From contig JAJDAP010000026.1 of NCBI GenBank assembly GCA_029261795.1, forward strand, positions 1 through 64,000: 64,000 bases of DNA, written 5' to 3'. This DNA is from Deltaproteobacteria bacterium. Its GTDB lineage: Bacteria; Myxococcota_A; UBA9160; UBA6930. The notes beneath the pieces are model-generated. The model did no database searches. It had not been told where the DNA came from and was given only the letters and a program-made list of their open reading frames with translations. A program made the translations under genes and the position numbers. Shown here piece by piece: positions 9,450 through 27,854 of this stretch (position 1 is its first letter; every line of letters starts with the position of its first letter).

Positions 9450-10310
9450 ATGACGGATCCGAAGATCGCGCTGAACCAGGCCTGGTGGGACGAGCGTGCG
9501 CCGCTTCACGTCGCCGGTGACTTCTATGACATCGAAGCGTTCAAGCGGGCCGGTGCCAGCACCCTGCAAGCCTTCGAGATCGACGAACTCGGTGATGTTG
9601 CCGGCCTCGATCTGGTGCACTTGCAATGTCATTTTGGGCTCGACTCGCTCTCCTGGGCCAGACGAGGCGCACGCGTGACCGGCCTCGACTTCTCGCCGAA
9701 CGCGATCACGGCAGCCGCCGAGCTGGCGAGCCAGATCGAGGTCGATGCTGCCTTCGTGGCTTCAGACGTCCACGATGCGGTCGAGGCCCTTGGCGAGCGC
9801 CAGTTCGACGTGGTCTACACCGGCCACGGGGCGCTCTGCTGGTTGCCCGACCTGGAGCGCTGGGCAGGCGTCGTCGCGCGCCTGCTGAGAGCCGGCGGGC
9901 GGCTCTATCTGGCCGAGTTCCACCCCCTCGTGGACGCCCTCGGCGAGGAGGAGCCGGTCTTCGAGATCGACTATTTTACGGGCCCAGCGGGGTTCAAGTG
10001 GAACGGTCCCGGAAGTTATGCGACGAGCGAGCCGACCGAGTTCGACGACAACTGGGAATGGATCCATCCCCTCGGCGAAGTCGTCAGCGCCCTCGCCGGG
10101 GCAGGCCTACGCATCGACAAGCTGACCGAGCGCGAAGAAACCTTCTTCCCCCGCTTCCCGTTCCTGGTCGAGAACCCCGGCAAGATCTACCGGATGCCCG
10201 CAGGCCGCCCCCGCATCCCCCTCAGCTACTCCCTGCTCGCCACGAAACCCAGAGCGGGGACGGACTCCTCAAGTTTCAAGATTGCAAGTTTTTCAAACTT
10301 GCAAACTTGA
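9450..10310 (+). CDS. class I SAM-dependent methyltransferase; last ~16 aa supplied by palindromic repeat
   Basis: LDLVHLQCHFGLDSLSWARRGARVTGLDFSPNAI..., FDVVYTGHGALCWLPDLERWAGVVARLLRAGGRLYLAEFHP; ends RAGTDSSSFKIASFSNLQT inside repeat 10249-10337. Confidence 0.85.
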   Translation: MTDPKIALNQAWWDERAPLHVAGDFYDIEAFKRAGASTLQAFEIDELGDVAGLDLVHLQCHFGLDSLSWARRGARVTGLDFSPNAITAAAELASQIEVDAAFVASDVHDAVEALGERQFDVVYTGHGALCWLPDLERWAGVVARLLRAGGRLYLAEFHPLVDALGEEEPVFEIDYFTGPAGFKWNGPGSYATSEPTEFDDNWEWIHPLGEVVSALAGAGLRIDKLTEREETFFPRFPFLVENPGKIYRMPAGRPRIPLSYSLLATKPRAGTDSSSFKIASFSNLQT

Positions 10311-10337
10311 AACTTGAGGAGTCCGTCCCCGCTCTGG
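10249..10337. repeat. near-perfect 89-bp palindrome (REP/MITE-like)
   Basis: Arms ccagagcggggacggactcctcaagtttcaag (10249-10280) and its exact reverse complement (10306-10337), 32/32; then one mismatch and ten more pairs to a ~3-nt centre. Confidence 0.9.
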
Positions 10338-10729
10338 TGGCACGGCGCATGCGTTCCATTTCTTCCCAGCCGATGTAGTGGGTGGGGCCGTTGTCGTCGA
10401 AGAAGAGTACGGGGCCTTCGCAGATGAAGAGATACTCGGTGTCTTCGAGCGCCGTGTTCGTACAGGTAGTCGCCGGCAGAGACGTAGCCGTCGCGCACCT
10501 CGAGCTTTCCTTTCAGCACGTAGGTGTGGGCGGCAGACAAGTGCTTGTGGGCTTCGGCCACGTAGCCCTTGTTCCAGCGGAATAACGCCGCCCATTGGCC
10601 ACTCTCGGAGCCGGTCCAGAGCACCTTGATCCAGGCATTCTCGCCGGTCGGCAACCAGCCGGCCTCAGCCGAGACCAGCGTGTCCATCAGCTCGGGGTTG
10701 AGGGGTGAGATGTCCTGGGCCAGCGCCAT
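10276..10729 (-). pseudogene. cupin-domain protein with internal frameshift; C-terminus supplied by palindrome
   Basis: Frame 1 MALAQDISPLNPELMDTLVSAEAGWLPTGENAWIKVLWTGSESGQWAALFRWNKGYVAEAHKHLSAAHTYVLKGKLEVRDGYVSAGDYLYE; frame 2 TALEDTEYLFICEGPVLFFDDNGPTHYIGWEEMERMRRATRAGTDSSSFKFASLKNLQS*. Frame changes at ~10455-10462. Confidence 0.7.
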
Positions 10730-10757: not shown

Positions 10758-11447
10758 CTAGCGAGCCAGATGCTCGCTGATCACCTGCTCCCATTCGGAG
10801 GGGCGGAAGAACATCGGCCCCATTCCGCCCTTGTAGGCGACCTCGCCGCCCTTGGCGATCAGGTAGAGCCGCTCGGGCATTGCCGCGTAATCCTTGGCAA
10901 CGGCATCATCCATCTCGTCGACCAGTGCGGGCATTTCCAGGGCCAGCTTGACCATGCACGCCTGGCCTACTTCGACCCGCTCGTCCATGGATTCGTGCTG
11001 GGCGAAGAGCACGGCGTCCTGCTCGTTCTCCTTCACCTGCCAGCCGTCGGTCGGGTGAATCTCGCGCAGGTAGATCACGTAGAAGTCGACCTGCTCGCGG
11101 AACTGCTGATAGATCCGATTGAGGGTCCCAGCCTGGGCCCGGAACGGCGGTCAGGTGTAGGACCCGAAGATCAAGGCGACAGGCCTTTCTGCGAAGCGAT
11201 CGGAGAGCCGCAGGGTCTCGCCTTCGCTACCCCCGTAGCCGGGCATGAAGGGGAGCTCGAAATCCCGGGCAGGCTCGCCCTGCTGGACCGAATTCGCCTC
11301 GCGCGGCATCAGCTCGGCAACCACTTCTGCGGCTTTCGGATGCGCCATCGCCGCCGCGAGATCGTCCTTGTCGAGGCCTTCCATGGCGTCGCCTTCGAGC
11401 CGTTCGAAAATCTCGGCCTTGAGGGCATCGAGGTCCTGGTCAGGCAT
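10758..11447 (-). CDS. iodothyronine-deiodinase-like (thioredoxin-fold) selenoprotein, in-frame UGA (Sec) at 11151-11153
   Basis: ORFs 11151-11447 and 10758-11078 share a frame with no other stop between: ...FAERPVALIFGSYT-U-PPFRAQAGTLNRIYQQFREQVDFYVIYLREIHPTDGWQV.... Matches deiodinase Sec context FGSxTUPPF. Confidence 0.85.
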
Positions 11448-22564: not shown

Positions 22565-22606
22565 TTCCGACCCGATTGCTCCCGCGCGTCCGGTTGGCAC
22601 CCCCGG

Positions 22607-23269
22607 CTAACAGCGGATGCGGCTCGCGCGCCGGAACCTCCAGCTGCAGAGAGCGGCGGAGACCAGAAGGAACGCGCTTGGCTCGGGAACCTGGGAAAAT
22701 GCGATGTTGTCGATGAATCCAAGGCCAGCCGCTAGATCGGTTGGATTCGGGAGGCAGCTGAAGCATCGCCAATGGATCGTGAGACTTGTGACACCGACGA
22801 TCTGACTTAGGTCCGCCACAAGGATGTCAGGGTTCGAGCCCGGGGCGCTCAACGGGATGGTGCCGGAGCCGGCGACTGTGATCCCGCCCGGCCCTTGCGG
22901 TTCTGGCCTGGACAGGAGTAGGAAGTCAGAGGGGTGACCCGCTGGACCGGCATAGAATTGCTGAATGCTGATAGACGCTACATGAGTGAGATCAACGGCC
23001 GACAGAGTGAGAGAGGTCTCAAACAATCTGACGACGGAGATGCCATCAATGGTCAACTCGATGAACGTGAGACCGTCACCGAAAATGGCCCACTCCCCTC
23101 CGAGGACTTGAGTGTTCACACGCTGCGCCGAGCCTGTAGCGACCCAGCCTTGCAGTCCACCCTCGAAGTCAAAGACGAGGGGGCCGGCAGAGAAGTCCGG
23201 CACGAATGGGGTCGCGAAGGCCGGATTCGATGCGGCGAGCACGATTAGAATCGTCAGGATCGTACGCAT
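22607..23269 (-). CDS. PEP-CTERM protein, paralog 3 (copy A)
   Basis: MRTILTILIVLAASNPAFATPFVPDFSAGPLVFDFEGGLQGWVATGSAQRVNTQVLGGEWAIFGDG...QVPEPSAFLLVSAALCSWRFRRASRIRC. Confidence 0.85.
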   Translation of the reverse strand: MRTILTILIVLAASNPAFATPFVPDFSAGPLVFDFEGGLQGWVATGSAQRVNTQVLGGEWAIFGDGLTFIELTIDGISVVRLFETSLTLSAVDLTHVASISIQQFYAGPAGHPSDFLLLSRPEPQGPGGITVAGSGTIPLSAPGSNPDILVADLSQIVGVTSLTIHWRCFSCLPNPTDLAAGLGFIDNIAFSQVPEPSAFLLVSAALCSWRFRRASRIRC

Positions 23270-23314
23270 TGCTCGCAGTCTGCCGTGAGGCCCCCGGTTA
23301 AGGTGGTGCCGCAG

Positions 23315-23327
23315 GGCCGAAAGTGGC
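23315..23327 (-). promoter_or_regulatory. shared upstream motif GCCACTTTCGGCC, paralog 3 copy
   Basis: Forward ggccgaaagtggc ~46 nt upstream of ATG 23269. Confidence 0.4.
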
Positions 23328-23518
23328 GCTGAATGCGCGTCGCCTGGCTTGCGCACTTCGACCCCAGCCTCCCCTTTGAATCCCTTGCGTGGACACGGGG
23401 AGCCGAGACGTTCACTCGTCGCGCGAAAACGCGTCGTTCCGAAGCCGGCGCAGCGGCGGCTGCTCGAGTCGGATCCCATCGAGCTATGTGTGCGGCTCTC
23501 CGGCGGGCTCTGAGCGCG

Positions 23519-23908
23519 TCACGATCTCCTGATAGTTCGCGATCGTGTCCGCGCCCGGGCGCAGAACCCATTAGCCTGGATGAGGTGGCGGACGCGCTCA
23601 ACGTTCGGGAGATCTCCACCCGCGGCGATGAACTCCTCGAGCGCTTGGCGCGTCCCCCGGACACACCGACCGACGCGCGAGAGGTGTGCCCGGCCTCGAG
23701 ATTGATTGGAGGCTGCCTCGTGGATTATGTTCCAGATCGCGTTCCGGAGCCGAGGCGTGATCTCGTCCACGGCGAGAAGGTCCGCGGCAGTCGGCTGCGC
23801 CCCGATGCGTTCCGAGAACCCTCGCACTTTACTACGCGGCCTACCTACTGTCGGCCGCACCGGCAGTCCTGCTCGCGCTCGCCTCCCATGCAATCCGGTT
23901 CGACCCAA
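23519..23908 (-). pseudogene. fragment resembling AbiJ N-terminal domain (AbiJ_NTD4-like)
   Basis: Minus strand KVRGFSERIGAQPTAADLLAVDEITPRLRNAIWNIIHEAA resembles FSERxGxxP...LRNxLWN of AbiJ N-termini. Recognition only. Confidence 0.4.
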
Positions 23909-23910
23909 GC

Positions 23911-24228
23911 GTGCGGGACCGCACTCCCGGGGCGCAGTACGAGCGAAGTCGTCAGCCCGTGTGCTGCCTGCTCGCGCTGCTCCCCGTCCTCTTGTACCTC
24001 CGCGTCGTCTACCTCTGGGGAGGATTCCGTCCCGCTCTCGACGCGACGCCCGACCCCGGCCGGATCGTCATATTCTTCGGGGGATTCGCGCTCACCACGC
24101 TGTGCTTTGCTTGGCTTGCCACGACCGGGCGTTCCAGCCACCAGTGGATCGGCTGGAGCATCGCGTGGGCCGTGCAACTGGTGCTGATCTCAGCGTTGCT
24201 CCCAGACCTCGCGCCGGTCGACCCCTGA
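23911..24228 (+). CDS. hypothetical membrane protein, possibly 5'-truncated
   Basis: Same frame open upstream with hydrophobic YYAAYLLSAAPAVLLALASHAI but no clear start; several TM-like segments. Confidence 0.45.
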   Translation: MRDRTPGAQYERSRQPVCCLLALLPVLLYLRVVYLWGGFRPALDATPDPGRIVIFFGGFALTTLCFAWLATTGRSSHQWIGWSIAWAVQLVLISALLPDLAPVDP

Positions 24229-24265
24229 GATCGACCCGTCGGATGCTGCTGCCTTGTGCTCGCAA

Positions 24266-24312
24266 TGGTCGGGCCGGCGAGATTCGAACTCGCGACCTCC
24301 TGACCCCCAGTC
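24266..24312 (-). repeat. displaced 3' fragment of tRNA-Pro (attL-like)
   Basis: 47-bp tggtcgggccggcgagattcgaactcgcgacctcctgacccccagtc identical to 27778-27824 (3' half of tRNA-Pro with CCA). Confidence 0.92.
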
Positions 24313-24437
24313 CGCCAGAGCGAGCGCGGTGGAGCGAGTACCGTTAGGTGGAGGTTGCAATTCCGCACACTTACGAGCACGGGCCGCGAGGCTAGGCGGG
24401 TGCAGATTGGTGCCGCGCGTCGGGTTGGCACCCCCGG

Positions 24438-25019
24438 CTAGCAGCGGATGCGGCTCGCGCGCCTGAACCTACAGCTGCAGAGAGCAGCGGAGAGCAGAAG
24501 GAACGCGCTTGGTTCGGGCAATGGGAAGAACGTGATGTTGTCTACGAAGCCAAGTCCAGATGTCGGTCCGGATCTGTTGCCGATCCACAGAATTCCCACC
24601 CCCTGCGTTTCAATCGCGGGGAAGCTGCTGAGCGTCCAGGTGCCTGGGTTCGAAGTCGCAGCCATGTCTTCCGCGAGGATGACGATCCCCCGAATGCCCA
24701 GCCGCGCGAAGGTAAACGGCGGGCCGGAATCGCCTGCGGAGAACTGCTCGACAACGATGGAACCGACATTGGTAAGGTCCACGTCCAAGAAGAGGTTTGT
24801 GTGGCCGCGGGGGTTCGCGCTCCCGTCTCCGAAGATGGCCCATTGCCCTCCGAGGACTTGGGTATTCACCCGCTGCGCGGAGCCGGTGGCGACCCAGCCT
24901 TGCAGCCCGTCCTCGAAGTCAAAGACGACGGGGCCGGCAGAGAAGTCCAGCACCAATGGTGTCGCGACGGCCGGATTCGATAGGGCGAGCACGATTAGAA
25001 TCGTGAGGATGGTACGCAT
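24438..25019 (-). CDS. PEP-CTERM protein, paralog 4 (copy B)
   Basis: MRTILTILIVLALSNPAVATPLVLDFSAGPVVFDFEDGLQGWVATGSAQRVNTQVLGGQWAIFGDG...LPEPSAFLLLSAALCSCRFRRASRIRC. Confidence 0.85.
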   Translation of the reverse strand: MRTILTILIVLALSNPAVATPLVLDFSAGPVVFDFEDGLQGWVATGSAQRVNTQVLGGQWAIFGDGSANPRGHTNLFLDVDLTNVGSIVVEQFSAGDSGPPFTFARLGIRGIVILAEDMAATSNPGTWTLSSFPAIETQGVGILWIGNRSGPTSGLGFVDNITFFPLPEPSAFLLLSAALCSCRFRRASRIRC

Positions 25020-25064
25020 TGCTCGCAGTCCGCCTTGAGGACCCCCGCTAACGTGGTGCCGCAG

Positions 25065-25078
25065 GGCCGAAAGTGGCA
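25065..25078 (-). promoter_or_regulatory. shared upstream motif TGCCACTTTCGGCC, paralog 4 copy
   Basis: Forward ggccgaaagtggca ~46 nt upstream of ATG 25019. Confidence 0.4.
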
Positions 25079-25515
25079 CTGAATGCGCGTCCTCTGGCTT
25101 GCTCACTTCGACCCCAGCCTCCCCTTTGATTCCCTTGCGTGGACAGGGGGAGCCGAGACGTTCACTCGTCGCGCGAAAACGCGCCGTTCCGAAGCCGGCA
25201 CAGCGGCGGCGGCTCGAGTCGGATCCCATCGAGCTATGTGTGCGGCTCTCCTGCGGGCTCTGAACGCGTCACGATCTCCCGATAGTTCGCGATCGTGTCC
25301 ACGTCCGGGCGCAGAACCAGTTGGCCTGGATGAGGTGGCGGACGCACTCAACGTTCGGGAGATCTCCACCCGCAGCGATGAACTCCTCGAGCGCTTGGCG
25401 CGTCACCAGGACACACCGACCGACGCGCGAGAGGTGTGCCCGGCTTCGAGATTGATTGAAGGCTGCCTCGTGAATCATGTTCCAGATCGCTGCAGCTGAC
25501 TGCCTGGGCCTCTAG

Positions 25516-27777: not shown

Positions 27778-27854
27778 TGGTCGGGCCGGCGAGATTCGAA
27801 CTCGCGACCTCCTGACCCCCAGTCAGGCGCGCTACCAAGCTGCGCCACGGCCCG
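27778..27854 (-). tRNA. tRNA-Pro (GGG), CCA encoded
   Basis: CGGGCCGTGGCGCAGCTTGGTAGCGCGCCTGACTGGGGGTCAGGAGGTCGCGAGTTCGAATCTCGCCGGCCCGACCA; anticodon loop CTGGGGG. Confidence 0.95.

Follow-up and report, generated by a model that had tools for sequence, protein, structure and literature searches.

Di Nocera et al. (2013) described TIRtrons with TIRYT transposases, and many of the TIRs share GGGGWSAS, a motif found in most known TIRs though not in every one (PMC3733652). Some TIRs form dispersed families, and also dimers or self-complementary units (PMC3733652). Most TIRYTs are placed in subclass 2.1, with helix-turn-helix-like C-termini (PMC6006769). The portions of PMC3733652 and PMC6006769 on which we draw contain no deltaproteobacterial TIRYT or TIR example. 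GTAG REPs adjoin the 3′ ends of ORFs and often supply the stop codon of the ORF next to them, and in some cases the repeat extends over the end of the coding sequence (PMC3733652). Rickettsia palindromic elements (RPE) are palindromic repeats that lie in frame inside ORFs and are translated within host proteins (PMC3733652).

The window analysed here is a stretch of 64,000 nucleotides from the genome of a Deltaproteobacteria bacterium (GCA_029261795.1, contig JAJDAP010000026.1). At 10249–10337 it holds a palindromic miniature element of the 75-nt core type, to which no strand is assigned. In an inverted-repeat search its arms (10249–10291 and 10295–10337) were 43 nt long and 98% complementary, with a 3-nt loop separating them. 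The outermost stretch of the arms pairs perfectly for 32 nt and is followed by a single mismatch, so that the 89-bp palindrome with 32-nt perfect arms described in an earlier note on this DNA is borne out, with arms that extend further. The family end motif GGGGACGGACTCC was matched at the left end on the plus strand (10256–10268) and at the right end on the minus strand (10318–10330). As RNA the palindrome folds with an energy of −82.4 kcal/mol (z = −16.4), as DNA with −53.4 kcal/mol (z = −17.8), and none of 200 shuffles folded as stably in either form. The inverted repeat is far above chance expectation. A search against Rfam gave nothing above threshold; its sole matches were microRNA hairpin models below threshold, which are meaningless here.

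The palindrome is a member of a family of repeats. Matches to the half-site GGGGACGGACTCC at one mismatch or fewer number 159 in the genome from which the window comes (5.74 Mb, 139 contigs), compared with 9 for a reversed control pattern. The count of copies that the earlier note called for gave at least 52 full palindromes, and the family is thus multi-copy; its true copy number probably exceeds this count, since several copies sit at contig ends. There are three main length classes, with cores of 75, 82 and 84 nt, and the flank consensus at the palindrome ends is (T/A/G)GAGC followed by GGGGACGG. Among the 43 copies of the four commonest length classes, 28 have identical 36-nt arms, and changes shared by both arms outnumber one-sided changes (58 vs 25). 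When right arms were dealt out randomly, identical arm pairs were fewer than observed. The arms thus vary between copies yet match within copies, which indicates that copies are kept, or made, as hairpins. From their distribution we infer that the palindromes are mobile.

A single Y1/HUH tyrosine transposase gene is associated with the family (C79:21096-22013, minus strand). Family arms flank it at C79:21073 and C79:22113 as terminal inverted repeats of 41 nt that begin with GGGGACGGACTCC, and the transposase ORF itself terminates with NLQT within its own arm. Y1_Tnp (PF01797) matches the protein with E=2.6e-7, and the motifs NHAHLL (HUH) and YVHLNP (Y---NP) can be read in the ORF. The residue between its two histidines is Ala, which is not among the commonest residues there according to the part of PMC6006769 used here. 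A sequence comparison of the transposase with solved structures gave no match. In related genomes, many homologs of the transposase likewise stand between inverted repeats, which often start with GGGGACG[G/T] and differ in sequence. Because the arms of the palindromes also form the terminal inverted repeats around the transposase gene, the best reading of the palindromes is as miniature derivatives of this element. A fragment that resembles this transposase, with internal stop codons, is found at C18:62207-62425 and is likely a dead relative.

The genome also contains a second high-copy family of Y1-transposase-like genes of about 230-240 aa, present at about 28 places (LRHSGWGGKRPGAGRKP...), for example at C37:27362, C76:25702 and C79:79990 (L079-L082, L084). 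Its coding part is conserved and its flanks diverge quickly, and many copies lie at contig ends. This family was rejected as the driver of the palindromes, as the flank consensus of nine copies was without such arms.

The closest known system is TIRYT/TIRtron, probably within subclass 2.1 as the consulted portions of PMC6006769 define it. The two share a HUH/Y1 gene between long terminal inverted repeats of the GGGG-starting type and dispersed repeats. They differ in that GGGGACGG agrees with GGGG[AT][CG]A[CG] at 7 of 8 positions and departs from it at one, in that many copies here are complete, near-perfect palindromes, and in that a C-terminal helix-turn-helix domain is weakly supported here (HTH_23 at residues 246-281, E=0.0085, a weak match below the cut-off). 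A single transposase gene accompanied by numerous short inverted doublets that form hairpins, chiefly at the 3′ ends of genes, is also what characterises REPIN/RAYT systems (Bertels and Rainey 2011, PMC3116915; Nunvar 2010, PMC2817692). A classical GTAG-tagged REP or REPIN that moves by means of a gammaproteobacterial-type RAYT would account for two inverted units making one long hairpin, for the kinship of the transposase with REP-associated tyrosine transposases and for a placement at 3′ ends that resembles that of REPs as PMC3733652 describes it in the part used. This origin is nevertheless improbable. The foot of the hairpin carries no conserved GTAG tag and instead ends with the flank consensus given above. 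The arms are the long terminal inverted repeats that bound the transposase gene, whereas REPs are 20-40 nt long, each with its own hairpin. The transposase scored 63.4 bits (E=2e-17) against REP_Tyr_transpos (NF047646), under the cut-off of 80 bits.

We therefore read the window palindrome, with high confidence, as a miniature non-autonomous derivative of a TIRYT element (TIRtron), in which a missing stop lets translation run on. The scattered palindromes are the arms of the transposase element joined by a short loop, with the gene absent. The transposase may recognise the hairpin in single-stranded DNA and copy it to new places. Copies lie directly behind stop codons, most often with the TGA of the gene overlapping the end of the element (TGA-GC, then GGGGAC), so that the host protein is normally unchanged. 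The copy in the window sits in the same register, where the stops of the convergent methyltransferase and cupin genes meet, with AGA and not TGA in both arms. Translation then enters the element and proceeds to a TGA beyond its centre, adding RAGTDSSSF..NLQ[T/S]. The TGA may have changed to AGA after insertion, or a copy ending in AGA may have been inserted as such, and the added tail is presumably tolerated. The earlier suggestion of a REP/MITE-like insertion thus stands as regards a mobile element, given the multi-copy family, the cognate transposase gene and the palindrome-free junction in a relative; the class fits TIRYT/TIR and is not that of a classical GTAG-tagged REP.

This palindrome-free junction was found in the one same-genus genome used for comparison (G001), which has neither a transposase match nor GGGGACGGACTCC. 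An identical methyltransferase tail suggests that this genome is that of Deltaproteobacteria isolate OFTM60. The order of methyltransferase, cupin and deiodinase-like genes is common to the window and this relative. The stops of its methyltransferase and cupin genes overlap at CTAG, and the proteins end with ..ARKPGDSGR and ..ERMRVAAA, respectively. The comparison with repeat-free orthologs proposed in the earlier note therefore gave a pair without the palindrome and with different tails. The boundary of the insertion can be placed only approximately, because the methyltransferase of the closest relative is just 58% identical.

The relation of the family to stop codons is close. Of 60 gene ends that face a repeat, 49 have a stop codon no more than 13 nt away from the GGGG core. 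In 23 facing genes the stop is a TGA exactly two bases ahead of the core (TGA-GC, then GGGG), and most of the remaining facing genes end with TAG or TAA just ahead of (G)AGC. These gene ends were taken from a simple codon-usage gene finder that mis-called at least the cupin region, and individual calls are approximate. TGA serves as the stop of the gene in 23 of 26 stop-facing TGAGC arms, compared with one third expected by frame (p=9e-9). TGAGC also occurs in 13 of 42 arms without a nearby facing gene end, so that it is at least partly the end of the element and not host sequence alone. AGAGC ends are likewise present in other copies of the palindrome. At the other junctions the C-terminus of most proteins coincides with that of the ortholog or differs from it by a few residues. 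This comparison covered confidently paired orthologs in G001, matched by shared 3-mers, with low-3-mer pairs (such as L211, L214, L218 and L221) left out. The conservation of these C-termini indicates that the insertions scarcely truncate proteins. As with GTAG REPs, the element ends often supply the stops of flanking genes; the difference is that TGAGC, through its TGA, takes the part that GTAG plays there through its TAG, and that the stop is missing in the window copy. A preference of the transposase for stops, in which target recognition reads TGA/TAG-like trinucleotides by the element end and the palindrome docks at stops and normally restores them, is rather unlikely in our judgement. 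Placement near 3′ ends can reflect selection against other insertions, the choice of target or a beneficial role at the 3′ end.

The class I SAM-dependent methyltransferase ORF (9450–10310, plus strand) consists of a native-like part (9450–10250) and an element-encoded tail (10251–10307), with the stop TGA at 10308–10310. It terminates inside the palindrome with RAGTDSSSFKIASFSNLQT, a run-on of 19 residues. Both arms of the window copy have CAGAGC, and the AGA triplets stand in the TGA register at 10251–10253 on the plus strand, where it is a codon of the methyltransferase, and at 10335–10333; half of the stop-facing arms have at this position the TGA of TGAGC followed by GGGGACGG. AGA in place of TGA in both arms is sufficient to explain the run-on into the element. 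The earlier statement that the palindrome replaced both stops can accordingly be refined: most copies adjoin a stop, and it is the arms in the window that read AGA at the position of TGA. Among 63 methyltransferase orthologs from several phyla, which usually end 2-6 residues past a SLRA-like motif, none has the tail. A change of the methyltransferase 3′ end by the palindrome, as claimed in the earlier note, is thus upheld, and the opposite case of palindrome-free orthologs with the same tail was sought among these orthologs and not found. The end sequences and coordinates that the note gave for both tails, with stops at 10310 on the plus strand and 10276 on the minus strand, are also right.

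The situation of the cupin on the minus strand is more complex. The minus frame entered at 10338 reads RAGTDSSSFKFASLKNLQS up to a stop at 10278–10276. The element-encoded tail in this frame, which is also the frame of the cupin's C-terminal half, extends over 10276–10338 (TRAGTDSSSFKFASLKNLQS); the edge of the element falls within the first codon of the tail, ACC, and the mirror AGA lies at 10333–10335. Alignment to the same-genus ortholog showed that the cupin in the window is 26 nt shorter near 10450, just past the conserved ..GDYLYE. Because of these missing nucleotides the cupin start is out of frame with the tail ending in NLQS, whose frame is shared by no more of the cupin than its conserved C-terminal half (THYIGWEEMERMR). 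Read from its own start (ATG at 10729), the ChrR-type cupin gene (Cupin_7, 10226–10729) is shifted in frame by the deletion and then crosses the palindrome from end to end, stopping at 10226 with ...SGDGLLKFQVCKFEKLAILKLEESVPALGFVASRE. Hence the tail proposed earlier for the cupin is correct as a minus-frame sequence and does not belong to an intact cupin gene; likewise, the palindrome altered the cupin 3′ end only in the frame that the C-terminal half uses and not in the frame from the gene's own start. The methyltransferase carries the tail, and the cupin carries it only in the C-terminal-half frame.

The cupin frameshift is either a sign of a decaying gene or an assembly error. In an assembly of 139 contigs, the letters inside the palindrome may contain an error as well. 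The 26 missing nucleotides, a genome fragmented into 139 contigs and the many copies at contig ends could suggest that the palindrome or the frameshift came from misassembly. We consider such an artefact very unlikely, as the copy is embedded in a 137-kb contig (C26) with unique flanks and with the gene order of the relative.

The tails of the two frames are alike because the palindrome is symmetric and is entered in equal phase from both sides, and the likeness is not owed to any coding function. The idea that the shared tail is a selected peptide which the element adds to host proteins draws on this likeness and on the fact that NLQ[T/S/L] also terminates the transposase and a second run-on gene (C82:81452-81991). 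The latter enters its copy in another phase and gains a different tail, RLSGDGLLKASKLQVSLWGNLQL, in place of the ..ILRYTPL with which its ortholog ends. As nearly all other facing genes stop ahead of the element core, and as symmetry and entry phase already produce the likeness, selection for the peptide is extremely improbable. What looked like a further run-on at L136 (C79:19840) was discounted, as the ORF lies antisense to a dehydrogenase-like gene and is likely spurious. The tails resemble RPE in that a palindromic repeat is translated as part of a host protein; unlike RPE, they are rare exceptions and are located at C-termini.

The hairpin might be kept chiefly as a bidirectional terminator or as a stabiliser of mRNA 3′ ends, which would explain its persistence and is compatible with an origin by transposition. 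Its high stability, the placement of the copies surveyed (18 convergent, 21 tandem and 4 divergent) and the maintenance of arm complementarity while copies differ are consistent with such a function. A U-tract is absent at the window palindrome, which therefore does not fit a classical intrinsic terminator, a terminator scan of both strands gave no match there, and the end motif is missing from the same-genus relative, where the corresponding gene pairs are palindrome-free. Complementarity is equally expected from hairpin transposition or from template-switch correction. We regard this as a doubtful main reason for the hairpin, although an RNA-stabilising or Rho-related role of the palindromes is possible.

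Other features of the window were also recorded. An iodothyronine-deiodinase-like protein is encoded at 10758–11447 on the minus strand (T4_deiodinase, E=9e-31), and its gene has an in-frame TGA at the SYT-U-PPF position, which the same-genus relative has too. Searches of the window's genome for selB and tRNA-Sec each gave a match above the cut-off. From these sequence features, the deiodinase-like protein is likely a selenoprotein. Identical 47-nt direct repeats at 24266–24312 and 27778–27824 look like the 3′ parts of tRNA genes, and duplicated blocks of 300 nt and 155 nt lie near them at 22574–25122.

Our data indicate that a TIRYT repeat family of a kind little studied so far has clearly expanded in one lineage, with dozens of copies in this genome compared with none in the same-genus genome, and palindrome-free junctions exist for comparison with the expanded family. 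For annotators, there is a warning that similar C-terminal tails on convergent genes can arise through the symmetry of a palindrome. The locus shows how a mobile palindrome that abuts stop codons becomes a protein tail where the stop is missing.
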